From Nitrospirota bacterium (GTDB taxonomy: Bacteria > Nitrospirota > Thermodesulfovibrionia > Thermodesulfovibrionales > UBA6898), in contig JAJXTV010000022.1 in the NCBI GenBank assembly GCA_021783515.1, positions 1 to 59,050 on the forward strand: a DNA stretch of 59,050 bases. The letters are read 5' to 3'. The notes under the pieces are model-generated. The model was given only the letters and a program-made list of their open reading frames with translations, did not search any database and was not told the origin of the DNA. Position 1 is the first letter of the stretch. The number at the start of each line of letters is the position of its first letter. Positions 17,872-44,693 of this stretch are shown here, in pieces. The position numbers and the translations under genes are program-made.

Positions 17872-18281
17872 GACTGTTTCTCCTTCGGTACGATATGGCA
17901 GCTGAAGCAATAGGGGTTCACCGCGAGATAATTGTGGCACTTGTCGCAGAACTCCTTCTTGTTCGAATGGCAGTTCAGACAGGTGTTCTGAAGACTGATA
18001 TGGAAACTCTCGCCGCGCGAATTCACGTAGATGCGCTGGCCGTAGCGGACGACCTCGTCACGCCAGGTGTTCAGCAGCTGCATGTGCTCCTTAGCCATGA
18101 ATTCCTTCGGTTCAACGCATTCCTTCTTGCCGTGTTCTTTTTCGTACTCAAGGATCGCAGGGGTATCGTACTTCAGCTTCGGCGCCACGTTCGCCTTTCC
18201 CAGGTTATAGTAGAACGGAAAGCCGAAGACGGCCACGAAGCCGATCACCACTCCGATGACGATCTTCCAGGCATTATTCAT
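17868..18281 (-). CDS. dsrJ: DsrJ, periplasmic trihaem cytochrome c
   Basis: The 137-residue protein has one N-terminal membrane anchor (residues 5-22) and three CxxCH motifs (CLNCH, CDKCH, CFSCH) near its C-terminus. This three-haem pattern and its place between dsrK and dsrO define DsrJ. DsrJ is known for one haem with unusual Cys/His ligation; several other cysteines and histidines are present (for example CVEP). It links the complex to the periplasm. Confidence 0.94.
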   Translation of the reverse strand: MNNAWKIVIGVVIGFVAVFGFPFYYNLGKANVAPKLKYDTPAILEYEKEHGKKECVEPKEFMAKEHMQLLNTWRDEVVRYGQRIYVNSRGESFHISLQNTCLNCHSNKKEFCDKCHNYLAVNPYCFSCHIVPKEKQS

Positions 18282-18282
18282 C

Positions 18283-19902: not shown

Positions 19903-19904
19903 GT

Positions 19905-20894
19905 TCACTCCTTCTCGACCGGCAGACCGGCCTTTTTCATTTTTTCTCTGAAGTCGTCTTCATACTCCTCATAGGTATGGACATGCACCGGATAGTTCCA
20001 GGGGTTGATATGTCTGACCTCCCTGTTGTTGTTCGCCATGTTCCTCGTGGGGCTGAGGAAAACGCCTCCCATATGCATGAGCTTGCTCAACGGGAAATAG
20101 GCAAGCAGGGTGCTGACGAGAAAGAGATGGGCATAAAAGAGGGAGCTGATACCCTGCGGAATGACCGGGCTGAAGGTGAGAAGCCCCATGACGAGCTCTT
20201 TCACGCTCACAACCGGCACCTTCGCGAAATACCGCATCAGAACGCCTGTCGCGCCGATCCCGAAGATGAGCAAGAGCGGGAAATAGTCCGCCGGCAGCGA
20301 GATATATTTGATCTGGGGCATCATCACCCTTCTCAGAAACAGAAATGTCACGGCACCCAGCAGGACCACATCAGTAATGTAGAGGAGCGGAGCGCCGATC
20401 TGGAGAAAACTGTCCAGATGCTCCACAATCTGGATGGGGTACGGCACATCCTGCATGAAGAACCTGAAGTGCCTCACGAAGATGATCAGGAACGACCAGT
20501 GGAACGCAAGCCCTCCGAGCCAGAGGAACTTCTCCGAGCCGTAGGTCAGCTTGGTGCCGGGGTACAACTGCGTCTTCGTGTTCCTGAAGAGCGAGCGGAA
20601 AGCAAGCACCTCAAGGAGCATCCTTCCGAGGACCCCAAGACTGCTCGACGGATTGTCGAGCTTGTTCTGCTTGATCCAGGGCGCAAAGGACTTCATCTGC
20701 CCCGCTGTCGTTGGGATCCGGAACGGCACGGGGGAACGCCCCCACTTGAGCACCTTGAATATGAACCCGAACACGAAGATCAGGACTGCCGCATAGGGGA
20801 TCCAGATCCCGAAGAGGGCATGGCTTGCCTGCGCACCCACCAGGGCTATCACCACAAGCGCGATTACAGCAAAGAAGGGTATCAAGATTTTCAT
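19905..20894 (-). CDS. dsrM: DsrM, dihaem cytochrome b subunit
   Basis: The 329-residue membrane protein of the nitrate-reductase-gamma (NarI) type has about six hydrophobic segments and histidines in FHWSFLIIFVRHFRFF and FYAHLFL suited to haem b ligation. DsrM oxidises menaquinol and passes electrons to DsrK. It is the first gene of dsrMKJOP and starts about 30 bases after the RsbRD-like gene. Confidence 0.94.
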   Translation of the reverse strand: MKILIPFFAVIALVVIALVGAQASHALFGIWIPYAAVLIFVFGFIFKVLKWGRSPVPFRIPTTAGQMKSFAPWIKQNKLDNPSSSLGVLGRMLLEVLAFRSLFRNTKTQLYPGTKLTYGSEKFLWLGGLAFHWSFLIIFVRHFRFFMQDVPYPIQIVEHLDSFLQIGAPLLYITDVVLLGAVTFLFLRRVMMPQIKYISLPADYFPLLLIFGIGATGVLMRYFAKVPVVSVKELVMGLLTFSPVIPQGISSLFYAHLFLVSTLLAYFPLSKLMHMGGVFLSPTRNMANNNREVRHINPWNYPVHVHTYEEYEDDFREKMKKAGLPVEKE

Positions 20895-20925
20895 TGAGTT
20901 ACCTCTTTTTCTTTATGCGTTATCA

Positions 20926-21486
20926 TTATTGCTTCCTTTCGGGGGGGGATTCTGCATCCGGCTCCCCGCCCAGTTCGTTTGCTCTTTGCACCAATCTGAA
21001 CGTCATTCTCCTGAGCTCGTTTGCCTTGATTTCGTAAAGTTTCTCCCGGCATCTCTCGAAAATATCGAAGGACGCCAGGGCGAGCGAGTCTATCCGGGAA
21101 TCGAGTTCGCGCAGTTCGCCGGGCGATACCGCAAAGTTTTTGTCGCCTTCCAGCTCTTCGCGTATCACACTCTTCAGTGAAAATATAAACGATACGGCCT
21201 GTGACGGGGTAAAGTCCTGGACCGCCCGGACCCTGAGGATGCTGTCGAGGAACGGAGAAACCTTCCCGATATCAACGACGTGAATGAGTTCGTCGAGGAT
21301 CTCCTCTATCCCCTGATGAATGGTATGCCCAACGGGGTTGGTGAAGCGGTCTTTCTGGTTCTTCAGGAAATTCGATGTGTCGGCCGGATAGGTTGCGAGG
21401 ATCAGATGAAACCATTTCTCTGCTATCGCCGGCTTCTTTTCGGAAAGAAACGTCTCCAGCGTCATAGACAGTACAGGCCGCTCCAT
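20926..21486 (-). CDS. RsbRD N-terminal-domain protein, dsr-linked
   Basis: The 186-residue, all-helical soluble protein (LETFLSEKKPAIAEKWFHLI near the start) matches the RsbRD_N type, which is often found directly before dsrM in sulfate reducers. The role is unknown; the fold is globin-like or sensory in related proteins. No haem motif is visible. ATG 21486 lies inside an inverted repeat and lacks a clear ribosome site; ATG at 21465 overlaps a short upstream frame stop (ATGA) and may be the true start. Likely co-transcribed with dsrMKJOP. Confidence 0.75.
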   Translation of the reverse strand: MERPVLSMTLETFLSEKKPAIAEKWFHLILATYPADTSNFLKNQKDRFTNPVGHTIHQGIEEILDELIHVVDIGKVSPFLDSILRVRAVQDFTPSQAVSFIFSLKSVIREELEGDKNFAVSPGELRELDSRIDSLALASFDIFERCREKLYEIKANELRRMTFRLVQRANELGGEPDAESPPERKQ

Positions 21487-21506
21487 ACGATTCCGTCCGA
21501 ATCGTA
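21486..21506 (-). promoter_or_regulatory. Inverted repeat at RsbRD-like gene start
   Basis: TACGATTC (21486-21493) and GAATCGTA (21499-21506) form a perfect 8-base inverted repeat around CGTCC. It covers the ATG at 21486. It could be a hairpin controlling translation or an operator for the dsrM operon. Confidence 0.4.
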
Positions 21507-21632
21507 CGTCATCGCCGCGGTAAAGCTCGCAATCCTTTCTGCTCTGGTATGCGGGATCTGTAGTATTTTCATGAATAGTGAACTCGACAGAACGCTCTTC
21601 GCTTCCCCTGACTCTTGCTCAGGGCTGAACAA

Positions 21633-21680
21633 CCGAGGAGGCACTCCATTGAGGTCGTCAATGGAGTGCCGGCTCCTCGT
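21633..21680 (-). terminator. Hairpin downstream of dsrC
   Basis: A perfect 13-base stem, GGCACTCCATTGA (21640-21652) with TCAATGGAGTGCC (21658-21670), extends through a short bulge by GAGGA/TCCTC. It lies about 20 bases past the dsrC stop. No long T-run follows on the minus strand, so it may stabilise the dsrC transcript or cause partial termination before the dsrM operon. Confidence 0.6.
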
Positions 21681-21697
21681 ACTGCTTGTTGCAAAGA

Positions 21698-22033
21698 CTA
21701 TACGCAGCCGGTAGGCTTAGGAAGACCGGCGTACTTACATGCCTGCTTCGCAGGTCCGCCCGGATAGAGTTCGTAGAGATACTTGGTGTTGCCCTTCTCA
21801 GGCCCCATCGCCTTGCCGATCTCTTTGACGAGAATCTTGATCATCGGGGCGATCTGGTACTGCTTGTAGTACTCCCTGAGGAAGTTGATCACTTCCCAGT
21901 GGGCTTCCGAGAGATCGATGCCGTCCTGCTTTGCGAGATGCTCGGCCAGGTCCTTGGTCCAGTCATCAAGATTCAGCAGGTAGCCGTCGTCGTCAACCTC
22001 GATCTGTTTTCCTTGAAAATCCATCATTGCCAT
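21698..22033 (-). CDS. dsrC: DsrC sulfur-carrier protein
   Basis: The 111-residue DsrC/TusE-family protein ends QACKYAGLPKPTGCV, with both redox cysteines (C99 and C110, the penultimate residue) at the 11-residue spacing of true DsrC. It receives sulfite-derived sulfur from DsrAB as a trisulfide, which DsrMKJOP reduces. The start follows a GGGGG-rich ribosome site. It has its own promoter region and a hairpin downstream, which suits the high abundance known for DsrC. Confidence 0.96.
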   Translation of the reverse strand: MAMMDFQGKQIEVDDDGYLLNLDDWTKDLAEHLAKQDGIDLSEAHWEVINFLREYYKQYQIAPMIKILVKEIGKAMGPEKGNTKYLYELYPGGPAKQACKYAGLPKPTGCV

Positions 22034-22110
22034 TGTACTTTCCCCCTTTCACGAGAAAATGAGATTTTAAAATTTTGTAGGGATTAACTCCCAACAACCA
22101 GAAACAGGAT

Positions 22111-22139
22111 ATTGTAAAGCATACGCACTCATATTGCAA
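22111..22139 (-). promoter_or_regulatory. dsrC proximal promoter
   Basis: On the minus strand TTGCAA (22134-22139) and TACAAT (22111-22116) are 17 bases apart, giving a start near 22104 and a 5' leader of about 70 bases before dsrC. Confidence 0.6.
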
Positions 22140-22183
22140 AATCAAGTATTCTATTCTTCGGATTATCAGATTGAGCTATAAAA

Positions 22184-22247
22184 AGTAATACAGATACATG
22201 CTCGCGGTCAAATAAAAAAAACTTATTCATTAATCATCAATATTTAT
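22184..22247 (-). promoter_or_regulatory. Shared dsr element and distal dsrC promoter
   Basis: Bases 22206-22247 match 27678-27719 upstream of dsrA at 34 of 42 ungapped positions (hand alignment), with identical blocks GGTCAAATAAAA, TTAATCAT and TATTTAT. On the minus strand the element ends in TTGACC, a -35-like box; a weaker TATTAC lies 15 bases on (22185-22190). It is probably a common regulator site or UP-like element for dsr genes. Confidence 0.6.
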
Positions 22248-22312
22248 CGGCGAATTTTCCGTGGACTATCGGTCTCTTATCACGGCCGCGAACAAAGATG
22301 ACGCGCCATATG

Positions 22313-22687
22313 TCACGCCCGGTCTGCCGGGGAGCCCTCCCGTTTAAGGTGGAGAAAAAGAAAGACAGGGGAGTTCGATCTGCGCCGCGGTTCACCCCCA
22401 AACCTCTTTCTTCTGCTGTCGTATCCGAGTTCCACCACTTCATAGTCTTCGCCCGGCACAAGACTCCAGGCCCTGTCCCAGTCGTCCCCGCAGAGGAGCC
22501 CGAGCGCGTCGACGTAAGCGTCTCCGAGCGAATGTCCGCCCCGGTCATAGATAAAGACGGCCCCGCAGTCGCACCTGCCCCCCTCAAAGGAGCTGCCGAA
22601 GCGGCATTGTATCTCCTCGGGACTGCCCATAAGTCTGCTGCAGAAGGGGCATTTCAAGGCGTTATCGTCAATGCTGCGGTCGATCAT
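22313..22687 (-). CDS. Uncharacterised Cys-rich protein in dsr locus
   Basis: The 124-residue product starts MIDRSIDDNALKCPFCSRLM and then has RCDCGAVFIY: two Cys pairs, as in a zinc ribbon, followed by an acidic middle part and a basic tail. I do not recognise its family. Its ATG lies within the last codons of the HEAT-like gene, so the two are translationally coupled, and both follow dsrN. It may serve DsrAB assembly or cofactor handling; that is only context. Confidence 0.7.
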   Translation of the reverse strand: MIDRSIDDNALKCPFCSRLMGSPEEIQCRFGSSFEGGRCDCGAVFIYDRGGHSLGDAYVDALGLLCGDDWDRAWSLVPGEDYEVVELGYDSRRKRFGGEPRRRSNSPVFLFLHLKREGSPADRA

Positions 22688-23333
22688 TCATTTTCCTCCG
22701 CAGTATTATAGCAGTTTCCTCCGCAATAGTTGCCAGTTTCTCTGCCGAAAGTTCCCTGTTGCGGTATATCTTCACCTCCGCGGTGTCGGCGCAAAGCCCG
22801 TCGACCGCGGGGAGAAGTCCGACGAGCATGAGACGGCCGGCGGCGAGCAGCGCATAATACCGCGTCAGCGCATCAGGGTGCTCCAGATAGTGCCCGATAA
22901 GAGGCGACGCGCACTCCACCAGGTCGGGTCTTATTTCACCGATCCGCGCGACTGCCCTGAGCACGCCCCGCCTGAGCAGTTCCTCATCATGGAAGGAGAT
23001 GATAATCGGCGCGATGTCGCAAAAATCCTCCGGATCGTTCCTCACGATCTCCCCGAGCAGATCCGGCGCGCTGCGGGGGTTGTTCCCCGATTCCTCCCGC
23101 ATCATCCAGAGTATCCTCTGCACCACAACCCTTACGGCGGCCGCATCGGCCTTCCCCCGCTCCCCCGCTATCAGACCGACCGCCTCAATCGCCCGCCAGC
23201 TTACGACGTCCTCCGGGTCATAACTGAGAGAAATGAGGGTCCTGAAGATGCCGCGATCACCTTTTGCCGCTGCGAACAGCCCGTCAAAATCACTCTCCCG
23301 CAAACATTCTATTACTTCATGCCTTGACGCCAA
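22668..23333 (-). CDS. HEAT-repeat-like protein in dsr locus
   Basis: About 221 residues, all-helical with repeats such as TLISLSYDPEDVVSWRAIEA, IAPIIISFHDEELLRRGVLR and LEHPDALTRYYALLAAGRLM, typical of HEAT/armadillo-like scaffolds. No catalytic motif is seen. TTG at 23333 is the probable start: GAGGAGG lies about 10 bases upstream and the gene then overlaps the dsrN stop; upstream in-frame ATGs lie inside dsrN. Position suggests a scaffold or maturation helper for the Dsr system. Confidence 0.7.
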   Translation of the reverse strand: MASRHEVIECLRESDFDGLFAAAKGDRGIFRTLISLSYDPEDVVSWRAIEAVGLIAGERGKADAAAVRVVVQRILWMMREESGNNPRSAPDLLGEIVRNDPEDFCDIAPIIISFHDEELLRRGVLRAVARIGEIRPDLVECASPLIGHYLEHPDALTRYYALLAAGRLMLVGLLPAVDGLCADTAEVKIYRNRELSAEKLATIAEETAIILRRKMNDRPQH

Positions 23334-24741
23334 GTCTGCTCTTCCTCCTCTTATATGCTGCGGCCTTCCTGACAAGACCGTTCGCCCATTCCGGGGTGCC
23401 GTACGCATGGACATGCGTGTAGGTCGCCAATACATTCTTATAGCATGCGCCGTCCATTCCGTCTACTATACCCTGCCCCCTCGTCATCCGGAAGGCGAAG
23501 TACATGCCCTCCCTGCGCCGATAGCCGAGTACCTTCGAATAGTGAAATTCGTGCCCCTTCAGCGTCGTCCCCCTTGCGTAAAACGGGTTCACCCTGCCCG
23601 CCCTGACGACGGTATACCCGTGGGCCTGGGGTTTCCCTTCGAGACTGAAAGAGAGAGGAAATACACCGACCATGGGATATCTTTCGTTGTCGAGGACCAA
23701 CGACTCTCCCAGGTACATCAGACCGCCGCATTCCGCATACACCGGCAGACCCGATTCTACCGCCTTTCGGAGCGACCGCCGGAACGAAACGTTGTTGGCA
23801 AGAGCAATAGAATTGGTCTCCGGGAAGCCCCCTCCGATATAGAGGGCGTCGACGTCCGGAAGCCTTTTTTCCGTAAGCGCGCTGACTTCCCACAGCCGCG
23901 CTCCCCTTGCCCGAAGCTCCTCGAAATTCTCGGGATAATAAAATTGGAATGCCGAATCTCTGATAATGCCGATAACCGGCCCTGACGCGGGAGGGTCCGG
24001 CTGCCGGAAGGGTCCGGCTGCCGGCAGTCCCCCGCCGGCCGCCCGCAATGCGACTTCCTTCAGGCCTTCAACGTCCACGTACTTCCTGACAACGTCCCCC
24101 GCAAGGGAAATCGCCGCGTTCACTTCCGGATGTTCCTGAAAGGGCGTAAGGCCCATATGTCTCTCGGTAAGAAGCGCGTTACGGAGCTTCGGTATGGCCC
24201 CGAAAACCGGGACGCCGCAGCAGTTTGCGATGACCTCCCTGATGATCTTTTCATGCCTCGCCCCCGCCACCTGGTTCAGGACTACGCCCCTGATCGCAAC
24301 CTTCCCGTCGAACTTCAGCATGCCGAGGAGCATCGCCCCTACGGTCCTCGTGGCCTTCGTGCAATCGATAACAAGCACGACTGGTGATTGGAGGGTCTTG
24401 GAGAGCTCGGCGGTGCTGAACGTCCCCGCAGCGTCCATCCCGTCGTAAAGACCCCGGTTACCCTCTATTACGGCCACCTGTGCGTCTCCGAAGTGTTGTA
24501 TGAATGACGTCAGGACTCTGTCGTTTCCGGTCAGAAAGGGGTCCAGATTATAGCAGGGGCGTCCTGCGGCGGCGGACAGCCACCCCGCGTCGATATAGTC
24601 GGGTCCTTTTTTGAAAGGGGCCGGCGCAAACCCGCCTTCCCGCCAGGCGGCAATCAACCCCAGCGACAGGGTGGTCTTCCCCGATCCGCCTTTCAGTCCA
24701 GCGATAACAAGCCTCGGGAACAACGTCTTTCTTCCTCTCAT
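23317..24741 (-). CDS. dsrN: DsrN / CbiA-type amidase-synthetase
   Basis: The 474-residue protein belongs to the cobyrinic acid a,c-diamide synthase family. P-loop GLKGGSGKTTLSLGLIAAW near residues 15-33, dethiobiotin-synthetase-like ATPase region (VIEGNRGLYDGMD), and a C-terminal class I glutamine amidotransferase with nucleophile in VYAECGGLMYLGE. In dsr loci this gene is called dsrN and is thought to amidate sirohaem. No cobalamin genes are nearby, which supports the Dsr role. ATG follows GAGGAGAG. Confidence 0.88.
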   Translation of the reverse strand: MRGRKTLFPRLVIAGLKGGSGKTTLSLGLIAAWREGGFAPAPFKKGPDYIDAGWLSAAAGRPCYNLDPFLTGNDRVLTSFIQHFGDAQVAVIEGNRGLYDGMDAAGTFSTAELSKTLQSPVVLVIDCTKATRTVGAMLLGMLKFDGKVAIRGVVLNQVAGARHEKIIREVIANCCGVPVFGAIPKLRNALLTERHMGLTPFQEHPEVNAAISLAGDVVRKYVDVEGLKEVALRAAGGGLPAAGPFRQPDPPASGPVIGIIRDSAFQFYYPENFEELRARGARLWEVSALTEKRLPDVDALYIGGGFPETNSIALANNVSFRRSLRKAVESGLPVYAECGGLMYLGESLVLDNERYPMVGVFPLSFSLEGKPQAHGYTVVRAGRVNPFYARGTTLKGHEFHYSKVLGYRRREGMYFAFRMTRGQGIVDGMDGACYKNVLATYTHVHAYGTPEWANGLVRKAAAYKRRKSRLGVKA

Positions 24742-24880
24742 TCTCTCCTCATTCTGATATGTTCTGGTCCTGACAGGTCGGCCACAGAGGGGCTCTGTTA
24801 TAATGCCCCAACCGGAAAGGGATTATCAACGAGGCGCGGGATATTGGATTCGCCCGTACGCGGGGTAGGGAACGGCAGAT

Positions 24881-24904
24881 ACAGAGGGGCCTGGGCCCCT
24901 CTGT
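24881..24904 (-). terminator. Hairpin after dsrD
   Basis: A perfect 11-base stem, ACAGAGGGGCC (24881-24891) with GGCCCCTCTGT (24894-24904), has only a 2-base centre. It lies 23 bases behind dsrD with no T-run on the minus strand. It may be a partial terminator or RNA-end stabiliser between dsrABD and dsrN. Confidence 0.55.
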
Positions 24905-24927
24905 TGTGCAAACGTGGAATTAATGTA

Positions 24928-25176
24928 CTACTTTATGAGACCTTTTTCCCTGAGGTATTCTTCGCTGGGGATCTCGACGGAGCTGGCGCCGCCACCGTAG
25001 GAATACATGAGTCTTCCGACGTCGATCATCGCCCTCATCGCCTTTTTGACTTCGTCCGGCTGCATGCTCTGCTCTGCCGATACCCCTTTGATGATGTCTT
25101 TTTCCTTCAGCTTCTTCTTACCCTTTGCGGCTTCTACGAAGGCAAATATCTTGTCCTGCAGTTCAGCTATTTCCAT
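24928..25176 (-). CDS. dsrD: DsrD
   Basis: The 82-residue winged-helix protein (MEIAELQDKIFAFVEAAKGK, then DVGRLMYSYGGG) is DsrD. It is restricted mainly to reductive-type Dsr organisms and is reported to be an allosteric activator of DsrAB. It lies about 80 bases behind dsrB, beyond a strong hairpin, so its level may differ from dsrAB. Confidence 0.94.
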   Translation of the reverse strand: MEIAELQDKIFAFVEAAKGKKKLKEKDIIKGVSAEQSMQPDEVKKAMRAMIDVGRLMYSYGGGASSVEIPSEEYLREKGLIK

Positions 25177-25212
25177 TCACCTTACCCCCGTTCGAACGTA
25201 ATTTTTACAAAT

Positions 25213-25240
25213 GGGACGGCCCGCGCAGGCGGGCCGTCCC
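25213..25240 (-). terminator. dsrB-dsrD intergenic hairpin
   Basis: A perfect 12-base stem, GGGACGGCCCGC (25213-25224) with GCGGGCCGTCCC (25229-25240) and a GCAG loop, is followed on the minus strand by ATTTGTAAAAATT, a weak U-rich tail. This fits an attenuator or mRNA 3'-end stabiliser that lets dsrAB be made in excess over dsrD. Confidence 0.7.
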
Positions 25241-25256
25241 GCTTCCCATTATACCA

Positions 25257-26327
25257 CTACCACTTAAATGTGGAAGCGGTCCTCATCGTGTCTCTCATGA
25301 AGGTGAAGTCGTCGATCGACTGGAAGGTGAAATCGATACCGGTGAGGGAGAAGAACCTCTCCCATCCGATCCGCTCGATCCACTCACCGAGTCTCTCGTG
25401 CTTCCTCGCGTTCGCCGCATACACTTCAACGATATGCTTGATCGCCGCAACGGCCTTCGGCCACCTCGGCGGCTCGTTCGAAATATACGGGATAACGAGT
25501 TTGGAGAACTTCGGGTTCGACCTGAGACTGTTGATCTTGCCGCCGACCACGATCGCTACGCCGTCGCGTTCGGGGTCCTTGATGCTGATAGGCGGACAGA
25601 CGGTGAAGCAGTTGCCGCAATACATGCACTTGTCGGCGTTGATCTTCACGCTCTTGTTCGCCGGGTCGGGGCTGATCGCGCGCGTCGGGCATGCGCCGAT
25701 GACCGTCGGCAGTTCGCACATATTCTTGAAGTTCGCGTGGTTGACGACCGGAACTTTCGTATGAACGGCAACGACAGCGATGTCGGAGCAATGAACCGCT
25801 CCGCACATGTTCACGCAGCAGGCAACCGCAAGCCTGACCTTGTTGGGAAGCCTTTTCGACTCGAAGTAGTCGTAGAGTTCGTCCATCATCGCCTTGACGA
25901 GACCCGACGCGTCGGTCGCGGCACTGTGGCAGTGCACCCATCCCTGGGTATGGACGACGTTCGTGATGCCGTACCCGATACCGCCCATCTTGAAGCCGCG
26001 GGCGGTCAGGTCCTTCTTCAGGGGCTCGAGCTGCTTCTCGTCGGAGACGAGGAATTCCGCGTTGTTCCTCGTCGTATAGCGCAGATAGCCGCCGCAGTAT
26101 TTCTCGGCGATATCGCAGTGCTCCCGGATCGTGTCAGTGGACATAAGCCTCGGGGAGGCCACCCTCACCGTCCAGAGCTTGTCGCCGCTTTCGGCAACGT
26201 GGACCATGGTGCCCGGGGTAAGGACTTCGTGGTATTTCCATTTGCCGTAATTCTTCTTTATTACAGGCGGCAGAAACTGCTCGAAATGAGGCGGGCCGAT
26301 ATCTGTTCTTCTCTGGGGTAATGCCAT
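25257..26327 (-). CDS. dsrB: DsrB, dissimilatory sulfite reductase beta
   Basis: The 356-residue subunit has the cysteine cluster [12 protein letters not shown] (C170-C180) for the [4Fe-4S]-sirohaem site and an inserted ferredoxin domain with [13 protein letters not shown] and [21 protein letters not shown] is typical of the sulfite-reductase core. With DsrA it forms the cytoplasmic alpha2beta2 enzyme that reduces sulfite and loads DsrC. It lies about 30 bases after dsrA with AAGGAGG before ATG. Confidence 0.97.
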
Positions 26328-26360
26328 TTTATATCCTCCTTATAAAATTATGTATTGAAT

Positions 26361-27587
26361 TTAGAATTTGTATTTGCCGGTCTTCTTTTCTTCAGCTTCC
26401 TTGGCCTTGTAGGAAGCGATATCGTCTTCGGTGTAGAACATGAAGGGGTCTTTCCTCGGCTCCCTGATCTGCTGCGGCATCGGCGGAACGCCTATCGCCT
26501 CGAGGAACGACCTCATGCCCTTCATTTCGATGACTTCTCCGATTCTCTCTCTCGGCTTCGCGTTCTCATCCCACCAGTCCCAGATCTTCCGGATGAGATC
26601 TTTCAGCTCGGTGTAGGGCTCTTCGATCTTGATGAACGGAATGATGACCCATGACAGCAGAGAGCCGACAACGATCGGGGCCTTACTGCCGATGCAGATC
26701 GTGGCGCCTCTTTCCTTGCCAGGCTTAAGGGCCTTGGTCATCTTCGAGATACAGTGCATGCACCTGTTGCACTCGGCGTTGTTGATCTTCAGCTCCTTGC
26801 CGTCATAGCTCATGCACTGGGTGGGGCACATATCGATGATTTCCGCCTTGATATCCATCTTGGAAGAATAGTTCTTCACCTCGGCCTGGTCGATCTGGAT
26901 ATCGCCCTTCCAGGTACCGATGATGGACATGTCGGCGCGCGCGATGGAGGCGACGCAGTCGCAGGCGCATCCCGATGATTTTATCTTGAACTTGTAGGAG
27001 AAGGTCGGCCTGTGGATCTCATCCTGGAACTCCTGGGTGAGGGCATAGGTGAGCCCCATGGTGTCGTACATCGCCCACTCGCAACGGCCCTGTCCTACGC
27101 AGCAGCTCGGGGTCCTCAGTGCGGAGCCTGAGCTTCCAAGGTCCCATCCGCGGGAGGAATACTCGGCGAATATCGTTTCCAGGGCATCCGTCTTCGTCCC
27201 GAGAAGGACCAGGTCGCCGGTGGAGCCGTGCACGTTGGTCAGGCCGCTTCCGTATTTGTCCCAGATATCGCAGATCTCTTTCAGCGCCTTGCTCGTGTAA
27301 AAGAACCCCGACGGCTGGTTCAGTCTGACGGTATGGAAGTGGGCGACGCCCGGGAATTCATCCCCGATCTCCGAATACCTTCCGATGACTCCGCCTCCGT
27401 ACCCGAGGACGCCGACGATGCCTCCGTGCTTCCAGTAGCCCATCTTCGTCCTGTAGCACTTTTCGAGGTGTCCAACCGCATCATTCGCCATCTCGTTGTG
27501 CTTCCCGGCCTTCTTCATTTCCGTGACAAAGCTCGGCCAGGGGCCTTTTTCGAGCTCGTCGATCAACGGCGTAGTATACTTCTTCAT
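26361..27587 (-). CDS. dsrA: DsrA, dissimilatory sulfite reductase alpha
   Basis: The 408-residue subunit has the CX5C (C163-C169) and CX3C (C207-C211) pairs that bind the [4Fe-4S] cluster next to sirohaem. The ferredoxin insert carries DMCPTQCMSY and CNRCMHCISKM. It is the first gene of dsrABD, with AAGGAGG 6 bases before ATG. The length and the presence of dsrD fit the reductive bacterial type; a tree would be needed to place the lineage. Confidence 0.97.
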   Translation of the reverse strand: MKKYTTPLIDELEKGPWPSFVTEMKKAGKHNEMANDAVGHLEKCYRTKMGYWKHGGIVGVLGYGGGVIGRYSEIGDEFPGVAHFHTVRLNQPSGFFYTSKALKEICDIWDKYGSGLTNVHGSTGDLVLLGTKTDALETIFAEYSSRGWDLGSSGSALRTPSCCVGQGRCEWAMYDTMGLTYALTQEFQDEIHRPTFSYKFKIKSSGCACDCVASIARADMSIIGTWKGDIQIDQAEVKNYSSKMDIKAEIIDMCPTQCMSYDGKELKINNAECNRCMHCISKMTKALKPGKERGATICIGSKAPIVVGSLLSWVIIPFIKIEEPYTELKDLIRKIWDWWDENAKPRERIGEVIEMKGMRSFLEAIGVPPMPQQIREPRKDPFMFYTEDDIASYKAKEAEEKKTGKYKF

Positions 27588-33735: not shown

Positions 33736-33917
33736 CCCGTCCCTTCCGCACGATAGCGCGCCGGGGAAAGCGGGCTATTCTGAATTGTAATAAATCTATA
33801 AATTTCTTAAATTGGACAAACGGGGACGATTTTGTTTATATACCCTGATAATTCTAAGTTTAATCTTTAAGGCTATCCGCTAGCGATAGCTGAAAAATCC
33901 AATCAGTTGAGGTGCTT
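33736..33917 (+). promoter_or_regulatory. Leader region of the cytochrome cluster
   Basis: AT-rich intergenic DNA. GCTATC (33872-33877) and GATAGC (33885-33890) flank the palindromic CGCTAGC and would form a small hairpin about 30 bases before the ATG at 33918. No known riboswitch pattern was recognised. A promoter is expected upstream, but I cannot fix its boxes. Confidence 0.35.
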
Positions 33918-34847
33918 ATGCCATACAAGAAGGTCGTTTGTTTTGCCGCGCCTTTGTTGGTTCTCGCACTCCTTCTCCCCATGAAGGCTTCGGCTCAGGA
34001 GTCGGCGAACTGCCTCGCCTGCCACAGCTCGATGAAGGGAAGGGTAAAGGCCGCCTCGGGCAATCTGATCGAACTGAACATCGATACGCAAAAGTTCGAA
34101 TCATCCGTCCACGGCGCTCTGGCCTGTACTGATTGCCACATCAAATTTTCTGACAATCCGCACTCTTCGCCGAACGCCCCTGTCCCGCAGGAAGTGCTCT
34201 CCGTATCGTCGAAGATTTCGAAAAAATACCCGGTCGACCCGGTCGCCGCCGCTGCCTGCGTCCAGTGTCACAACGAGACCTATAACAAGGTGCTCGAGAG
34301 CGTCCACGGGAGGAATATCACCGTGAAGCATCAGACTGACGGCGCACTCTGTCTCGACTGCCACGGGTCTCCCCACTATATCCTGCCGGCAGGAAACCCG
34401 GGAGCCCTGATGGGCCGCCAGCATCAGGTGGAAACCTGCGGCAAGTGCCACGGGAACAAGGCGCTCAACGAAAAATACAAGATGGAAGAGAACGTCATGG
34501 AGAGCTTCGAGGAGAGCTTTCACGGACGGAAACTGGCCCTCGGACACACAAGGGTCCCGGTCTGCTCCAGCTGCCACGGCTCCCACGACATAAAGGCGGC
34601 GGACGACCCCACCTCCCCCGTATTCGGCAACAACAGGCTGAAGACCTGCGGCAAGTGCCACAAAGGGGCGAACGAAAAGTTCATCCCGGCGATCACGCAT
34701 AAGATGCCGGGACCGATCCCCTACTACACCGAAAAGGCGCTGATACTGCTGGTCCTGGGCGTCTTCACCTTTATCATTTCTCACGTACTGCTCGAGGCAT
34801 TCTCCGACATCAGGGATGCGATATTCAGGAAAGGGGGGCACGAATAA
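33918..34847 (+). CDS. Seven-haem membrane-anchored cytochrome c
   Basis: About 309 residues, with a signal peptide (VCFAAPLLVLALLLPMKASA), seven CxxCH motifs (CLACH, CTDCH, CVQCH, CLDCH, CGKCH, CSSCH, CGKCH) and a C-terminal membrane helix (ALILLVLGVFTFIISHVLL). It therefore faces the periplasm with a C-terminal anchor. GAGG before ATG 33918 decides the start over GTG 33912. Its stop overlaps the following cytochrome b start (TAATG). It resembles parts of quinol-cytochrome c modules; the physiological partner is unknown. Confidence 0.85.
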   Translation: MPYKKVVCFAAPLLVLALLLPMKASAQESANCLACHSSMKGRVKAASGNLIELNIDTQKFESSVHGALACTDCHIKFSDNPHSSPNAPVPQEVLSVSSKISKKYPVDPVAAAACVQCHNETYNKVLESVHGRNITVKHQTDGALCLDCHGSPHYILPAGNPGALMGRQHQVETCGKCHGNKALNEKYKMEENVMESFEESFHGRKLALGHTRVPVCSSCHGSHDIKAADDPTSPVFGNNRLKTCGKCHKGANEKFIPAITHKMPGPIPYYTEKALILLVLGVFTFIISHVLLEAFSDIRDAIFRKGGHE

Positions 34848-35596
34848 TGAGCCAGACCGCTACGACATCTACCCGCGAGATCCCGAAGGAAATAGAGAGG
34901 TTCAACGTAACGTTCCGCATACAGCATATTATCATGTTCACGACGTTCCTGCTCCTGAGCTTCACCGGCTGGGGGCTAAAATACGCATACGCGCCAGGAG
35001 GTGTATCGAGCTGGTGGATACGCGTCTGGGGCGGTCCCGAGACCGCCGGCATCATCCACAGGGTCGCAGGGGTGACGATGCTGCTCGATTTCATCTGGCA
35101 CGTCATTTATCTTTTCTACCTCCTGGGCACGAAGAGAATGACGATCAACCTGAAGACGACGATCATCCCTCTTCCGAAGGACATCTTCGACGTGGTGCAG
35201 AACTTCCTGTACTTCTTCGGCCTGTCTAAGGAGAAGGCGAGATTCGGGAAATACTCCTACGCGCAGAAATTCGACTACTGGGCGGTCTTCTGGGGCATGT
35301 TCATCATCGGTTTTTCCGGATTCTCTCTCGCCTTTCCGATGCTCGTCTCCCACATCATCCCCCAGTTCGCCACGGCCTGGATATGGCAGCTCCTTTCGAT
35401 CATGCACAGCGATGAGGCGCTCCTCGCGATTGTCTTCATTCTCTTCTGGCACTTCTACAACGAGCACCTCAAGCCGGAGAACTTCCCGATGAGCTGGCTC
35501 TGGATAACCGGAAAGATATCGACTGACACGCTGAAGCACCACCACCCGATTGAATACGAGATGCTCTTCCCGGATGCGAAAAAGAAAGAGGACTAG
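34847..35596 (+). CDS. Cytochrome b (FdnI/HydC-like) membrane subunit
   Basis: The 249-residue protein has four hydrophobic segments with histidines in RIQHIIMF, GIIHRVAG, FIWHVIYLF and ILFWHFYNEH, the pattern of dihaem cytochrome b561-type subunits such as formate dehydrogenase gamma. It would exchange electrons with menaquinone. It lies between two periplasmic multihaem proteins and overlaps the first by one base, so the three probably form one complex. Confidence 0.85.
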   Translation: MSQTATTSTREIPKEIERFNVTFRIQHIIMFTTFLLLSFTGWGLKYAYAPGGVSSWWIRVWGGPETAGIIHRVAGVTMLLDFIWHVIYLFYLLGTKRMTINLKTTIIPLPKDIFDVVQNFLYFFGLSKEKARFGKYSYAQKFDYWAVFWGMFIIGFSGFSLAFPMLVSHIIPQFATAWIWQLLSIMHSDEALLAIVFILFWHFYNEHLKPENFPMSWLWITGKISTDTLKHHHPIEYEMLFPDAKKKED

Positions 35597-35604
35597 GGGG
35601 AACG

Positions 35605-36363
35605 ATGGCGAGAATACTAGCGTCCCTTTCCATAATCCTGCTGCTGGTTTCCTGCAGCAAGTGGAAGCCGGTCGAGAAACCGGCCGCCGAGCAGAAGGAG
35701 TCCCCGGTGATCGCCTCGCTGAAAGACTCCGGACTGCCCTGTTTCCGGTGCCACTCGTATGAGAAATTTTCGCTCGATTCGAAGGGTAAATTCTCCCATC
35801 CGAAGCACATGGGGTTCGGGGTCCACTGCAACCAGTGCCACATCATCGTGCCTCACAAGGAGATGGCGCTGAACAAAGACACCTGCAACAACTGTCACAA
35901 CCTGACGACTTTCACCTACGAGGCCGCAGGACTCCCCGTAACGTACCCTCATCGCAATCATGAAAAGAGATACAGCTGCGGGGAATGCCATCCGAAGCTC
36001 TTCCAGATGAAAAAGGGCACCTCGAACATCACGATGGACGAGATGCTCAAGGGAGAAAACTGCGGGAGATGCCATAACGGCAGGATAGCCTTCTCCGCAA
36101 GCGACTGCGCAAAATGCCATAACCTCGCGGCGCTGAAGAAGGATTTCACCTACCCGGCCGGCGACATGAGGCCTGCGGTCTTCAGCCACCAAGTGCATAC
36201 CGCGATGTTCGAATGCAGCAGCTGCCACCTGTCCCTTTTTAAGTACAAGAAGGGCGGCTCCGGCATGAAGATGGACGCCCTCTACCAGGGCAAATTCTGC
36301 GGCAAGTGCCACGACGGCAAGACGGCATTTGCCGCTACCGAATGCCAGCGCTGCCATAAATAA
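35605..36363 (+). CDS. Nine-haem lipoprotein cytochrome c
   Basis: The 252-residue protein has a lipobox (IILLLVSCSK, lipidated Cys 17) and nine CxxCH motifs (CFRCH, CNQCH, CNNCH, CGECH, CGRCH, CAKCH, CSSCH, CGKCH, CQRCH) in c7-like repeats with preceding FSHP/YPH-type distal histidines. It would be anchored in a membrane facing the periplasm and conduct electrons along its haem chain. It is the last gene of the cluster, before a strong terminator. Confidence 0.88.
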   Translation: MARILASLSIILLLVSCSKWKPVEKPAAEQKESPVIASLKDSGLPCFRCHSYEKFSLDSKGKFSHPKHMGFGVHCNQCHIIVPHKEMALNKDTCNNCHNLTTFTYEAAGLPVTYPHRNHEKRYSCGECHPKLFQMKKGTSNITMDEMLKGENCGRCHNGRIAFSASDCAKCHNLAALKKDFTYPAGDMRPAVFSHQVHTAMFECSSCHLSLFKYKKGGSGMKMDALYQGKFCGKCHDGKTAFAATECQRCHK

Positions 36364-36573: not shown

Positions 36574-38007
36574 ATGAATAGTCATCGCACGGCAAGGCGC
36601 ACCAATTCTTTCAGTTCGGCCCTGGTTTCACTCTCGATCGTCTTTGCGGCGTTAATGCTATCGGGATGCAGCGACAGCAGGACATATACGGTCTCGGGGA
36701 CGATCACATCGGGCGGCGCGCCGCTTTCGGGCATTACCGTTAACCTCGCGGACAACAACTCATCTTTCACTGCTACAGCGATAACCGACGCAAGCGGCAA
36801 GTACAGCTTCACAGACATCGCGGGCGGCATATACACGGTAACTCCTTCCAAAACAACCTTCGGCATCTTCACCCCGCCTCTCCGAAGGGCCTATCTCGAC
36901 GGCCTCAGCGCGACCGAATTTAACTTCAGTATAACGAACGCAGGCAGGCTGTCAGGGACGAACCACACCATATTTCTCCGGACCGACGGCACCGTCTGGA
37001 CATGGGGGGATAACAGCAACGGGCAGCTCGGCAACGGATCTACCGCGGACAGCTCCGTACCGGTAAATGTCGCAGTCCTGACCGGGGTAACGGCCGTCTC
37101 TGCAGGCAATACGCACAGCGTCGCGCTCAGGCTCGAAAGCGGAGCCACGACTACCACCGTCTGGACGTGGGGGAACAATGCCAGCGGTCAACTCGGTGAT
37201 GGGACTACAGACCAGCGCACCACGCCGGTGCAGGTGATAAATCTGGACAGCGTCGTGGCAGTTTCAGCAGGCTCGGATCACACCGTTGCACTGAAAAACG
37301 ACGGCACCGTATGGGCCTGGGGCAAAAACGACACCGGACAGCTCGGAAATGGAAGCACCCTTGCGAGCGCCGCCCCGGTACAGGTGACAGGCCTCTCGAA
37401 CATCATCGCCGTCGCGGCGGGCGCCAACTTCACGCTTGCGCTGAAGAACGACGACACCGTATGGGCCTGGGGCAAAAACGACACCGGACAGCTCGGAAAT
37501 GGAAGCACCTCCTCAAGCGCAACTCCTGTGCAGGTGAGCGGGCTCGTCAATGTAGTGGCGATAGGAGCCGGCGACACCCATGGCATCGCTATCAGGAGCG
37601 ACGCGACCACCCTGTCAGTCTGGACCTGGGGGAATAATACTAATGGACAGCTCGGAGTCGGGACGACGACTCAGCACACAACCCCGGTGCAGGTGCCGGA
37701 CCTCAAGGATGTGGCCAGCGTTGCCGCAGGCGCCGATCATACCGTCGCCCTGAAGACAGACGGCACCGTGTTGGCATGGGGCAGCAACGGTAACGGGCAA
37801 CTCGGCAACGGAAGCACGACACAGAGCGACGCACCGGTACAGGCAAGCGGTCTTTCCGGCATCATCGCGGTGGCCGGAGGCTCTCAGTATAGTATGGCGC
37901 TGAAGAACGACAACACAGTCTGGACGTGGGGCAGCAACGGAAACGGGAGGCTCGGAAACGGAACGACGACTGACAGCCTGACGCCGGTTCAGGCGCTGGT
38001 ACCGTAG
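36574..38007 (+). CDS. RCC1-repeat lipoprotein
   Basis: The 477-residue protein has a lipobox (ALMLSGCSDS, lipidated Cys 32), a carboxypeptidase-regulatory-like beta domain (residues about 38-110, VSGTITSGGAPLSGITVNLA) and seven RCC1 repeats (WTWGDNSNGQLGNG and variants), enough for a seven-bladed propeller. Such bacterial RCC1 proteins are extracytoplasmic and usually of unknown binding specificity. Two repeats share a 55-base identical stretch (37305-37359 and 37455-37509), 150 bases apart, so the array has recently expanded or converted. TATAAT at 36469-36474 is a candidate promoter. Confidence 0.88.
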   Translation: MNSHRTARRTNSFSSALVSLSIVFAALMLSGCSDSRTYTVSGTITSGGAPLSGITVNLADNNSSFTATAITDASGKYSFTDIAGGIYTVTPSKTTFGIFTPPLRRAYLDGLSATEFNFSITNAGRLSGTNHTIFLRTDGTVWTWGDNSNGQLGNGSTADSSVPVNVAVLTGVTAVSAGNTHSVALRLESGATTTTVWTWGNNASGQLGDGTTDQRTTPVQVINLDSVVAVSAGSDHTVALKNDGTVWAWGKNDTGQLGNGSTLASAAPVQVTGLSNIIAVAAGANFTLALKNDDTVWAWGKNDTGQLGNGSTSSSATPVQVSGLVNVVAIGAGDTHGIAIRSDATTLSVWTWGNNTNGQLGVGTTTQHTTPVQVPDLKDVASVAAGADHTVALKTDGTVLAWGSNGNGQLGNGSTTQSDAPVQASGLSGIIAVAGGSQYSMALKNDNTVWTWGSNGNGRLGNGTTTDSLTPVQALVP

Positions 38008-40716: not shown

Positions 40717-40899
40717 ATGAAAGAACGAGACGTATATGAGGCTATTATCGAAATCGGCAAAAGGCGCGGGTCCGTCACTTTCGACGAGATCAATGACGCG
40801 CTCCCGGCGGAGTTTTTCTCTCTCGAAGAACTCGAAAAGTTCCTGAGGCTTCTTCTGGGGATGGGGGTGAGGCTGAGGCCGAAGGCCGTCAGGGGGTAG
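40717..40899 (+). CDS. Stand-alone sigma-70 region 1.1 protein
   Basis: The 60-residue protein aligns without gaps to the first 60 residues of the neighbouring RpoD: about 25 of the first 50 positions are identical by hand, including RRGSVTFDEINDALPAEFF (residues 16-34) against [19 protein letters not shown]. It ends where region 1.1 ends, with a basic tail (RLRPKAVRG) instead of the acidic linker. AAAAAAGGTGAAGC gives a ribosome site. In sigma-70, region 1.1 masks DNA-binding parts and occupies the RNA polymerase channel, so a free copy could act in trans. Its 3' end overlaps the convergent regulator gene by 11 bases. Confidence 0.8.
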   Translation: MKERDVYEAIIEIGKRRGSVTFDEINDALPAEFFSLEELEKFLRLLLGMGVRLRPKAVRG

Positions 40900-42253
40900 C
40901 GCCGCCGATTCCGAGTTTCTTTATCTTCCGGTAAAGCGTGGCAAGGTCTACGCCGAGCTGCCGCGCCGTCTCTTCCTTGTTCCCGTCGTTCGCCTGGAGC
41001 GTTTCCCTGATGACATTTTCTTCACAGGCGTCGAGCCTGTCCTTCAGGGTCCTCAAGGTTCTCGTACCGTCGTGCGACCTGATCTTCTCGGGGAGCTCGG
41101 AAATCCCTATCGGCCCTGAGCCCGAGAGTACGACCGCCCGTTCGATAACGTTCCTCAGTTCCCTGATATTCCCGGGCCAGGGATAACTCACCAGGGCCGC
41201 CATCGCGTCATCCGAGATGCCTGCCGCCTTCTTATTGTTTTCCCGGCAGCACTTTTCGATAAAATGGCGGGCGAGGACCTCGATGTCCTCCCGCCTCTCC
41301 CTCAGGGGAGGAATCTTCACTTCGATCACGTTCAGCCGGTAGTAGAGGTCCTCGCGGAAAAGCCCCCTTTTGATCTGGTCTTCCAGGTCCTTATTGGTGG
41401 CGGCGACCAGCCTTATATCCACAAACCTCGGCTTCGTCTCACCCAGCGGCAGAACCTCTCCGGTCTCGAGGACCTTCAGCACCTTCGCCTGAAGCCCCAT
41501 CGGCATGTCGCCGATCTCGTCGAGGAAAAGTGTCCCCTGATCGGCCATCGTGATCAGGCCTTTCTTGTCGGAGGCGGCGCCGGTAAAGGCCCCCTTCCGG
41601 TATCCGAAGAGCTCGCTTTCAAGGAGATTTTCCGGAATCGCGGAACAGTTGATCGCGATAAACGGCTTGTCCTTTCTCTGACTGTTGCCGTGGACGATCT
41701 CGGCGACGAGACCCTTCCCGGTGCCGCTTTCGCCGAGGAGGAGGATGTTCGACCTCGTCGGGATCACCTTGCTCAGGATATCGAGCACCTGCGAGATCTG
41801 AGGCGAGACACCGATAAATTCCCGATTGCCGAACTGCTGGCTGAGCTGCTGCCGGAGAACGAGGTTTTCCATCAGGACCTTCCGGTGCTCCAGCAGCCTC
41901 CTTACGGTCATCTTGACGTCCTCATTGATAAAAGGCTTTACAATATAATCGCTCGCCCCCTTCTTCATCGCCTCGACTGCCGACTCGACCGAGGCAAAGG
42001 CGGTCATAATCACCACGATCAGGCCGGGGCTCATCGCAAGAGACCGCTCGAGCACCTGCATGCCGTCGACGCCTTCCATCTTAAGATCGCTGATGACGAG
42101 GTCGAATTCGTCCGATTCGACCTTCTTCAGCGCCTCTTGCCCGCTGTTAGCCGTGACCACCTTGTAGCCCTCCCGGGACAGCAGAAACTCGAGCGCCCTG
42201 CAGATGTCCCGTTCATCGTCTACGACCAGTATCTTCGCCGACTCAACTTTCAT
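40889..42253 (-). CDS. Sigma-54-dependent response regulator (NtrC family)
   Basis: The 454-residue protein has a receiver (VVDDERDICRAL, phospho-Asp in LVISDLKM, Lys in IVKPF), an AAA+ domain with Walker A GESGTGKGLVAE and the sigma-54-contacting GAFTGA (RKGAFTGAASDK), Walker B GTLFLDEIGDM, and a Fis-type helix-turn-helix (ETARQLGVDLATLYRKIKKL). It is coupled by a short overlap to the upstream haem-motif kinase, its likely partner. Targets are unknown. Confidence 0.93.
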   Translation of the reverse strand: MKVESAKILVVDDERDICRALEFLLSREGYKVVTANSGQEALKKVESDEFDLVISDLKMEGVDGMQVLERSLAMSPGLIVVIMTAFASVESAVEAMKKGASDYIVKPFINEDVKMTVRRLLEHRKVLMENLVLRQQLSQQFGNREFIGVSPQISQVLDILSKVIPTRSNILLLGESGTGKGLVAEIVHGNSQRKDKPFIAINCSAIPENLLESELFGYRKGAFTGAASDKKGLITMADQGTLFLDEIGDMPMGLQAKVLKVLETGEVLPLGETKPRFVDIRLVAATNKDLEDQIKRGLFREDLYYRLNVIEVKIPPLRERREDIEVLARHFIEKCCRENNKKAAGISDDAMAALVSYPWPGNIRELRNVIERAVVLSGSGPIGISELPEKIRSHDGTRTLRTLKDRLDACEENVIRETLQANDGNKEETARQLGVDLATLYRKIKKLGIGGATP

Positions 42254-44693
42254 AATACGGCAACCTCACCCTGAATATCGTTCCTCCCCCCGGCCTGTTC
42301 TCGACCAGGATATCTCCCTGATAGCTCTTGACGATATTATAACTGACCGCGAGCCCGAGGCCGGTGCCCTTTTCCTTCGTCGTGAAGAACGGGTCGAAGA
42401 TCTTCTCGAGGTGTTCGGGGGAGATCCCGGAGCCGGAATCCGCCACCGAAATCTCTACGTCGTCGTCGAGCTCCCGCGCGCCGATCTCGAGGGTGCCTCC
42501 GTTCGTCATGGCATCGGCCGCGTTCAGGATGATATTCATCAGCACCTGGATCATCTGCGTCTCGTCGACCCTCACCGGAGGCATCGTGCCGGGGATGTCA
42601 ACGCGCGTCGCGATGCCCTTCATCCGCTTGTCGTACTTCACGAGGTCGAGGGTCATATCGACGAGCGTCCGCGCATCGTGGTGCCTCAGATCGGACATCC
42701 TCGTCTTCGAGAAACTCGACATCTGCCGCACAATGTCGGCGATCCGGTTGATATGCTTGGCCACGGTGTCGAGGCTCTCTTTGGTAAATTCGTCATGGTC
42801 CATCTCCCTCAGGATCTGCACGTAGGAGGAGATGGAGGTGAGCGGGTTCCCGATCTCATGGGCGATCCCGGCCGAGATCCTGGCGAGCGCCGACAGCTTC
42901 TCCGACTGCATCAGCCGGTCCTCCATCTTCTTGATATCGGTGATGTCCTGGATCAGGACAAGCGTCTGCCGGTGGGCATGCGCGACGACAAGGGGCGTCG
43001 AGGTGATCTGGAAATAGCCCTTCTTCTTTCCGTAGTCGTGGTAGACAACCTCCCGGAGCATCTTGTCATCCACGATCGCACGGTGAAAGCCGCCTCCGCC
43101 GAAGATCTTCCCGACGCCGATCCCCTCTGCCGAATCCTCCCCGAGCCACTCCAGCAGCGTCCTGTTGACCCATATGATCTTTTCTTCGTCGTTGTCCAGC
43201 ACGCAGAGCCCTCCCTCGATGGCGCTGACGATGGCGTCGAGCTTCTCCTTCTCTCCCTGCAGCTCGTCCGTTCTGCTGACCACCATCTCCTCGAGCCGGA
43301 GCGCGTAGTCCTGGATCCTGGTCTTCAGGCTCACCTCTTCCGTCACGTCGCTGCTCGAAAGGATGATCCCCGCAACCTCGCCGTGGAGCACGAGGGGGTT
43401 GACGTTGATATTGAGCGAGAGCGTCTGGCCTCCCCGCGGATAGGCGTAGTTGCTCAGCCGGTGGCTCCTGCCCTCCAGGCACTGCTCAAGCACCCTCCGG
43501 AGGGCGCCCGTTTCGCGGTCGGCCGCGCTTATCTCGAAGACGTCGAAGAAGTTCTTCCCGACAATCTCCTCCTTCGCCCGGCCGCAGAGCCGCGCATGGG
43601 CCGAATTGACGGTATGCACGATCATGTCCCTGTCGAGCACCATGATCTTCGACTCGGTATTTTCGAGAAGGTTCTCCAGATAATCCTTCGCCTCTACGAT
43701 CTCCTTTTCGAGGAGCTTCTGAGCCTCGAGATACTTTGTCCTTTCCTCGGCCTTCACCCGCTGCCGGTTCATCGTCACGATCGCAAACGCCCCCGTCACC
43801 GTTGCGATGAAGATCGAGATGACGAGGAGCGAGTGGAGCTTCATGCTCTTGCGTATGCTGAAGGTCACTTCGGAATAGGGGATCGAGACGCAGACGATCC
43901 ACGAAAGGTCGGCCACCTTCACTTTCGAAAACGCGATCAGCTTGTCCTCTCCATACGGGGCGATATAGGAGCTGAATCCGATGTCCCCGCTTTCGAGGAT
44001 CTTCCTCTCGACGTCGAAGGACTTGTGGCAGTCGAAGCAGGACTTGTCCGCCTTGTAGAGGTTCTTGCCGACCATCTTCGGCTGGGTGGGATGATACAAA
44101 AGGGTGCCGTCTCCGGACATCATCCAGGCGTGGCCCCGGATACCTGCCTTGATCGGAGCCAGAAACTTCTTGCTGATCGTGTTAATCGACATCTCCAGGA
44201 CCAGCAGCCCGTTCGGGCCGCCCCGCCCGGCTACAGGGGTGAAAAGCACCAGTTTCCTCTCCTCCGCCAGCCGGTCGAGATAGACGATCTCTCCAACAGG
44301 GACGGCGGAGGAGTTTCTGAACAGCTCGACATCCTCCGGAGCGATCCGTTCTCCACGCGAGCTGTAGACCATCTTCCCCTTTCCGTCGATGATCTTGATC
44401 GCGACATTCGCGTCCTCGCTCAGTTCCACGTATGCGGTATAGACCGCCTCCTGCACGCTCCTGCCGCTCATGCTTCCCTCGCCGAGCAGCCTGGCGAAAG
44501 AGAGGGTTTCGGCATCGATGTGCTGCATGTCGCCTTCGATACCCTTTGCGATTGAGCGGGCGATCAACAGCTGCTGCCGGTTGAACTGCTCGGCCATCTC
44601 GCTCTGATAGCTCTGCTGGAAAAACATGTTGAGTGTAATAATCAGCGAGATGATGAAAAGGACGAGTCCGAAAAGAAATATGTTGGTCTTCAC
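42243..44693 (-). CDS. Sensor histidine kinase with periplasmic CxxCH
   Basis: The 816-residue kinase has a membrane segment (residues 5-23), a large dCache-like periplasmic domain (about 30-285) that contains CFDCH at residues 219-223, a second segment (about 287-306), two PAS domains (about 340-450 and 480-590), HisKA (ISAGIAHEIGNPLTSIS) and HATPase (NAADAMTNGG, DSGSGIS, GTGLGLAVSYNI). The CxxCH lies in the second half of the sensor domain and could bind haem c. It is followed by its response regulator and preceded by a Mut7-C gene; all three overlap. Confidence 0.9.
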   Translation of the reverse strand: MKTNIFLFGLVLFIISLIITLNMFFQQSYQSEMAEQFNRQQLLIARSIAKGIEGDMQHIDAETLSFARLLGEGSMSGRSVQEAVYTAYVELSEDANVAIKIIDGKGKMVYSSRGERIAPEDVELFRNSSAVPVGEIVYLDRLAEERKLVLFTPVAGRGGPNGLLVLEMSINTISKKFLAPIKAGIRGHAWMMSGDGTLLYHPTQPKMVGKNLYKADKSCFDCHKSFDVERKILESGDIGFSSYIAPYGEDKLIAFSKVKVADLSWIVCVSIPYSEVTFSIRKSMKLHSLLVISIFIATVTGAFAIVTMNRQRVKAEERTKYLEAQKLLEKEIVEAKDYLENLLENTESKIMVLDRDMIVHTVNSAHARLCGRAKEEIVGKNFFDVFEISAADRETGALRRVLEQCLEGRSHRLSNYAYPRGGQTLSLNINVNPLVLHGEVAGIILSSSDVTEEVSLKTRIQDYALRLEEMVVSRTDELQGEKEKLDAIVSAIEGGLCVLDNDEEKIIWVNRTLLEWLGEDSAEGIGVGKIFGGGGFHRAIVDDKMLREVVYHDYGKKKGYFQITSTPLVVAHAHRQTLVLIQDITDIKKMEDRLMQSEKLSALARISAGIAHEIGNPLTSISSYVQILREMDHDEFTKESLDTVAKHINRIADIVRQMSSFSKTRMSDLRHHDARTLVDMTLDLVKYDKRMKGIATRVDIPGTMPPVRVDETQMIQVLMNIILNAADAMTNGGTLEIGARELDDDVEISVADSGSGISPEHLEKIFDPFFTTKEKGTGLGLAVSYNIVKSYQGDILVENRPGGGTIFRVRLPYYES

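Follow-up and report, generated by a model that had tools for sequence, protein, structure and literature searches.

In Geobacter, the CbcBA, CbcL and ImcH systems oxidise menaquinol and deliver the electrons to the periplasm (PMC12307469, PMC9129911). CbcBA consists of the 7-haem CbcA and the b-type CbcB, and in G. metallireducens a gene for a 7-haem periplasmic cytochrome (Gmet_2928) is directly followed by a gene for a b-type cytochrome (Gmet_2929) (PMC10989804). In CbcL, all nine haems are bis-His coordinated, and conserved Met residues are absent (PMC9129911). Seep-SRB2, a partner of ANME, is without Qrc, and its CbcBA has been proposed to run in the reverse direction (PMC10553843).

Here we analysed a contig stretch of 59,050 nucleotides (the window) from a Nitrospirota bacterium, whose genome is 3.16 Mb in size and 98.7% complete. 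At positions 33918-36363, three genes arranged in tight tandem and in one direction encode a protein with 7 CXXCH motifs, an FdnI-type cytochrome b and a protein with 9 CXXCH motifs (Table 1). Gene 1 starts with an ATG behind the ribosome-binding site GAGGTG, the GTG at 33912 upstream being only a mechanical ORF start; the ATG of gene 2 overlaps the stop codon of gene 1 by 1 base, and genes 2 and 3 are 8 bases apart. The original prediction, made from the letters alone, had described a membrane-anchored 7-haem protein, an FdnI-like dihaem cytochrome b and a 9-haem lipoprotein, and all three descriptions were supported by sequence. It had also proposed to search for the same triple in other genomes. 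We ran this search and found the triple in dozens of Nitrospirota, with a gene order that recurs across families. Family f25, which belongs to a different class, has for the most part the pair of genes 1 and 2 alone, as seen in several loci that are without the lipoprotein gene. Among open-licence papers, we found none describing this Nitrospirota module and none on Nitrospirota plus CbcL.

Table 1 Features of the window, with the fused paralogues found at other loci
Feature	Coordinates	Strand	Basis or remark
Gene 1, 7-haem c-type cytochrome, CbcA-like by layout	33918..34847	+	7 CXXCH, signal peptide, C-terminal transmembrane helix
Gene 2, dihaem cytochrome b of FdnI family, CbcB-like by layout	34847..35596	+	PF01292, 1kqf_C match
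Gene 3, 9-haem lipoprotein, one specific triheme module and two GSU1996-type (TIGR04257) modules	35605..36363	+	TIGR04257, lipobox
Leader inverted repeat GCTAT-N9-ATAGC	33872..33890	+	About 28 nt before gene 1 ATG; DNA inverted repeat or RNA hairpin
NtrC-type sigma-54 response regulator	40889..42253	-	PF00158, PF00072, PF02954
dCache-PAS histidine kinase	42243..44693	-	PF02743, HisKA, HATPase_c; CXXCH in predicted periplasmic sensor domain
DsrD	24928-25176		
DsrC-like protein	21698-22033		
Small DsrJ	17868-18281		
Fused 7-haem/cytochrome b	L119:6247-7983 (G228:C39); L120:10296-12041 (G309:C95); L055:8388-10085; L058:10527-12215		

All 7 CXXCH motifs of the gene 1 product (309 aa) were invariant in 34 diverse orthologues, together with seven distal His residues, one per haem (H65, H82, H130, H153, H202, H223 and H261), and with H289, which lies inside the C-terminal membrane helix. 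The AlphaFold (AF2) model, with a pLDDT of 86, places this helix at residues 269-306. As there is a distal His for every haem, none of the haems appears to have a free site, which suggests that the protein carries electrons and does not act as a reductase. Foldseek gave no significant match to the fold in the PDB. With VIA-align, the structure matched hydroxylamine oxidoreductases at a Z of about 8 and an rmsd of 12-17 Å, a similarity interpretable as a common multihaem arrangement only.

The gene 2 product (249 aa) matched PF01292 with an E value of 1.2e-8, and reached 33 bits against the NCBIfam model of the formate dehydrogenase gamma subunit, under its cut-off of 115.85. Both the profile comparison (E 8.4e-10) and Foldseek, in which it was the best match (E 8e-7), led to 1kqf_C, the FdnI subunit of E. 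coli formate dehydrogenase-N. H27, H71, H187 and H202, all invariant, aligned with H18, H57, H155 and H169, the four haem ligands of FdnI, and the loop GKFSYAQK aligned with GKYNAGQK, the quinone-side loop of FdnI. Thus gene 2 and FdnI have the fold, the four haem ligands and the quinone-side loop in common, and an FdnI-fold b subunit with four haem-ligand His residues, as expected of the CbcBA type, is present in the window, as judged by the protein's own fold and ligands. Gene 2 differs from FdnI in having neither FdnG nor FdnH nearby and a 7-haem cytochrome as the partner. Elsewhere in the genome of the window, two further loci (C48:61934-64172 and C28:36536-38928) pair a cytochrome b gene with one for a 13-haem protein; the former pair adjoins a histidine kinase gene and clusters with distant relatives from archaeal MAGs (L059 and L060). 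In a search of plasmids, one Yersinia FdoI was the sole match.

The gene 3 product (252 aa) carries a lipobox, LVSC, with an invariant Cys17 followed in the window by Ser, not Asp, and all of its 9 CXXCH motifs were invariant in 18 orthologues. This invariance in genes 1 and 3, together with the gene order recurring across families, shows that the CXXCH motifs are not due to chance. The nanowire triheme domain TIGR04257 was found twice (E 1.3e-43; 147 bits versus a cut-off of 40), and the family profile matched 3ov0, the dodecahaem nanowire GSU1996, with an E value of 1.9e-87. The protein is composed of three triheme modules, in which modules 2 and 3 are of the same TIGR04257 type as GSU1996 and module 1 is of another triheme type. 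Orthologues carry 9 haems in 33 loci, 6 in 17 and 3 in 5, varying by lineage; module 1 is joined by two nanowire modules in the first group, by one in the second and by none in the third. Whatever the size of the protein, the module 1 sequences are similar to each other, and their scores against the nanowire modules are much lower. Proteins of this type therefore differ from GSU1996 in having zero to two such modules on a distinct N-terminal triheme module, and in the lipobox of the window protein and most of its relatives; in two loci (L056 and L058), the N-terminus of the 3-haem protein is hydrophobic but has no clear lipobox Cys. Modules 2 and 3 each have two invariant distal His residues with conserved Met residues nearby (Met135, Met144 and Met223), which is consistent with one His/Met haem in each of these modules. 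The resemblance of the 9-haem protein is thus to GSU1996, and the fewer distal His residues and conserved Met in two of its modules speak against regarding it as CbcL-like.

Natural fusions indicate which of the parts belong together. Four loci encode proteins of 562-581 aa in which a 7-haem domain, a membrane helix and a paralogous cytochrome b are joined, and these proteins are encoded beside the separate version and sensor kinases. The cytochrome b parts of the fusions form one clade apart from the separate version (100/99 support). The layout of the fused paralogues is CbcL-like, but with seven haems. Given these four fusions of paralogous parts, the 7-haem protein and the cytochrome b are expected to be in contact. 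Over 31 loci, the pairwise distances correlated at 0.86-0.91 among the three proteins of the window type, which, uncorrected for the species tree, is a measure of co-inheritance only. The original prediction had paired the 9-haem protein with the cytochrome b in the manner of CbcL-type conduits. The notion of a conduit between quinone and periplasm built from separate parts was retained as very probable, but the partner of the cytochrome b appears to be the 7-haem protein, in view of its membrane helix, the fusion of its type in four proteins and the match with the CbcBA layout.

By layout, the closest known system is Geobacter CbcBA, with CbcL second, since it is the 7-haem type and not the 9-haem one that is fused to the paralogous cytochrome b. 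As in the published CbcBA layout, separate and adjacent genes encode a 7-haem c-type and a dihaem b-type cytochrome, with the c-type gene first. The two systems differ in the third gene, which encodes a GSU1996-type triheme-repeat lipoprotein in the window, whereas G. metallireducens (CbcABCDE) has the 11-haem CbcC and others. CbcL likewise combines a dihaem b-type membrane domain with a periplasmic multihaem part, as do the four fused paralogues; it is, however, a single polypeptide, while the parts in the window are separate and gene 1 has seven haems.

We consider it fairly probable, by analogy with these systems, that the triple constitutes an inner-membrane menaquinone:cytochrome c oxidoreductase that functions in the manner of CbcBA, is switched by redox conditions and passes electrons from menaquinol through the cytochrome b and the 7-haem protein to the 9-haem wire and on to extracellular or partner acceptors. 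Menaquinol would be oxidised at the cytochrome b, and the electrons would cross its two b haems. The 7-haem protein, fixed in the membrane through its C-terminal helix, would receive them into the periplasm, and the 9-haem lipoprotein, as a wire of triheme units, would lengthen the chain toward PpcA-like carriers or outer-membrane cytochromes. In this way the cell could make use of extracellular or partner acceptors, which the module probably serves. A bolder arrangement, to which we assign a low likelihood, is that the lipoprotein crosses the periplasm with a reach set by its triheme units (3, 6 or 9 haems), is anchored by its lipid in the outer membrane, as the Ser in place of Asp behind its lipobox Cys would allow, and docks on the inner-membrane complex of 7-haem protein and cytochrome b, forming a fixed bridge between the two membranes without a diffusing carrier, with the haem-c redox sensor as the switch. 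The genome of the window encodes further triheme-domain proteins and large cytochromes with 11 to 35 haems. A cluster of multihaem genes in it (G000:C24:150002-163192) encodes proteins of 2063 aa with 35 CXXCH motifs, 801 aa with 11 and 905 aa without haem motifs.

To see what surrounds the module, we compared about 60 loci, identifying by name only the commonest neighbour clusters, and saw no formate dehydrogenase, hydrogenase, reductase or other catalytic gene recurring beside it. An adjacent enzyme of a different kind, for example a formate dehydrogenase catalytic subunit, had been named beforehand as the finding that would speak against the proposed conduit. A role as the gamma subunit of a formate dehydrogenase or hydrogenase was rejected on the neighbourhoods and the scores. 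FdnI-type cytochromes b serve many enzymes, and a 13-haem/cytochrome b paralogue lies beside a sensor kinase in the same genome, so the triple could also be conceived as handling electrons at the membrane for some periplasmic enzyme that is encoded elsewhere and escaped recognition, for example a dehydrogenase or a reductase of nitrite, tetrathionate or the like. This seems improbable to us, as no catalytic gene was seen to recur near the module in the loci compared and the 7-haem protein, with its distal His residues, offers no open site. In the family of the window, a BamA-Skp-LpxD-FabZ-LpxA-LpxI block recurs next to the module, and small membrane proteins are other recurrent neighbours. Nine loci have, upstream of the module, a gene for a 10-haem protein that begins with a membrane helix and matches NapC/NirT weakly (e.g., L035:5245-6123); it is possibly an ImcH-like second quinol oxidase. 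Directly after the module in the window (36574-38007), a lipoprotein-like protein with seven RCC1 repeats is encoded.

Regulatory genes also recur near the module. The genes of a sigma-54 response regulator and a histidine kinase recur as a convergent pair near the module in many families, downstream of it in the window, and homologues of the regulator adjoin the module in about 30 loci. The CXXCH of the kinase is part of a SCFxCHxSF-type motif in full-length close relatives beside the module. We surveyed 396 genomes of the phylum, calling the module by its cytochrome b at E <= 1e-60, and found the module in 68, dsrA in 176 and the sensor domain in 87. The sensor domain was present in 59 of the 68 module genomes versus 28 of the 328 others, and was linked to the module within 12 kb in 29 genomes. 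Within the class, it occurred in 49/57 module genomes versus 24/110 others, and the association stratified by family remained strong (OR 17, p 1.5e-6), in tests that treat genomes of the same family as independent and in which MAG incompleteness adds noise to both the sensor and the dsrA comparisons. On these data, shared ancestry does not account for the sensor association. For the oxidoreductase that we favour, the haem-c sensor kinase and the sigma-54 regulator would probably act as the switch by which redox conditions control the module. Geobacter cbcBA is reportedly induced with the help of the regulator BccR, to which the presence of a sigma-54-type regulator near the module of the window is a parallel.

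RpoN is present in the genome of the window, and the region ahead of the module in the window showed no sigma-54 site. Strong sites resembling TGGCA-N7-TTGCT precede the module only in other lineages (L055-L058, L023, L030 and L047), and a sigma-54-like score was reached in 9 of 52 loci, with two sites tried per locus, compared with about 3% per control site. The inverted repeat in the leader stands before gene 1 at the majority of loci in the window's family, where its outer and sixth pairs show paired changes, and has its sole exact match in the genome at this position. No Rfam riboswitch was found in the leader, and the leader of the window folded no better than shuffled sequences.

From a reading of the sequence, positions 15881-27587 of the window hold a dsr set comprising DsrAB, DsrD, a DsrC-like protein, a DsrN/CobB-like protein and DsrMKJOP. 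The set is of the reductive type, with DsrD. Across the phylum, dsrA was found in 64 of the 68 module genomes versus 112 of the 328 others. This strong correlation vanished within the class (Fisher p 0.55, in a test of little power, as nearly all genomes of the class carry dsrA) and on stratification by family (p 0.40). As far as these data go, the dsrA association is thus explained by shared ancestry.

The original prediction had suggested that menaquinol electrons may be carried to DsrJ, and we had to abandon this idea: a dedicated menaquinol electron supply for DsrJ of DsrMKJOP is very unlikely, given that the link to dsrA disappears within the class and that 100 of the 154 dsrA-bearing genomes of the class are without the module. 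The module does lie about 8.5 kb from dsrA in the family of the window, in genomes that have both on one contig. This linkage, however, was unseen outside the family, and it sits behind the conserved BamA-to-LpxI block, which points to general synteny.

The dsr set does make both directions of electron flow physiologically plausible. The same complex might run in reverse and replace Qrc in a sulfate reducer: menaquinone would be reduced by periplasmic cytochromes, which in turn would receive their electrons from a donating partner or from oxidations in the periplasm. Such a route has its precedent in the proposal for CbcBA of Seep-SRB2 (PMC10553843), and it would suit the reductive-type dsr set of the window and the frequency of dsrA among the module genomes. 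We nevertheless regard reverse flow as unlikely, if conceivable: the association with dsrA was not significant within the class, and the genome turned up a single NiFe hydrogenase small subunit, and this one bears a Tat signal as well as a hydrophobic stretch at its C-terminus, so that the enzyme may have a membrane link of its own and need no such route.

Two features are new compared with the known systems: a lipoprotein built in modules, with 3, 6 or 9 haems, and a sensor system with a haem motif that co-occurs with the three genes. The variation from 3 to 6 to 9 haems amounts to a natural experiment on the length of a triheme wire, and through the haem-motif sensor the signal that controls the module becomes testable. 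For dsr-bearing Nitrospirota, the module offers a marker at the genome level, and it is a concrete candidate for the link between the quinone pool and the periplasm, a link that perhaps extends to minerals or partner cells.
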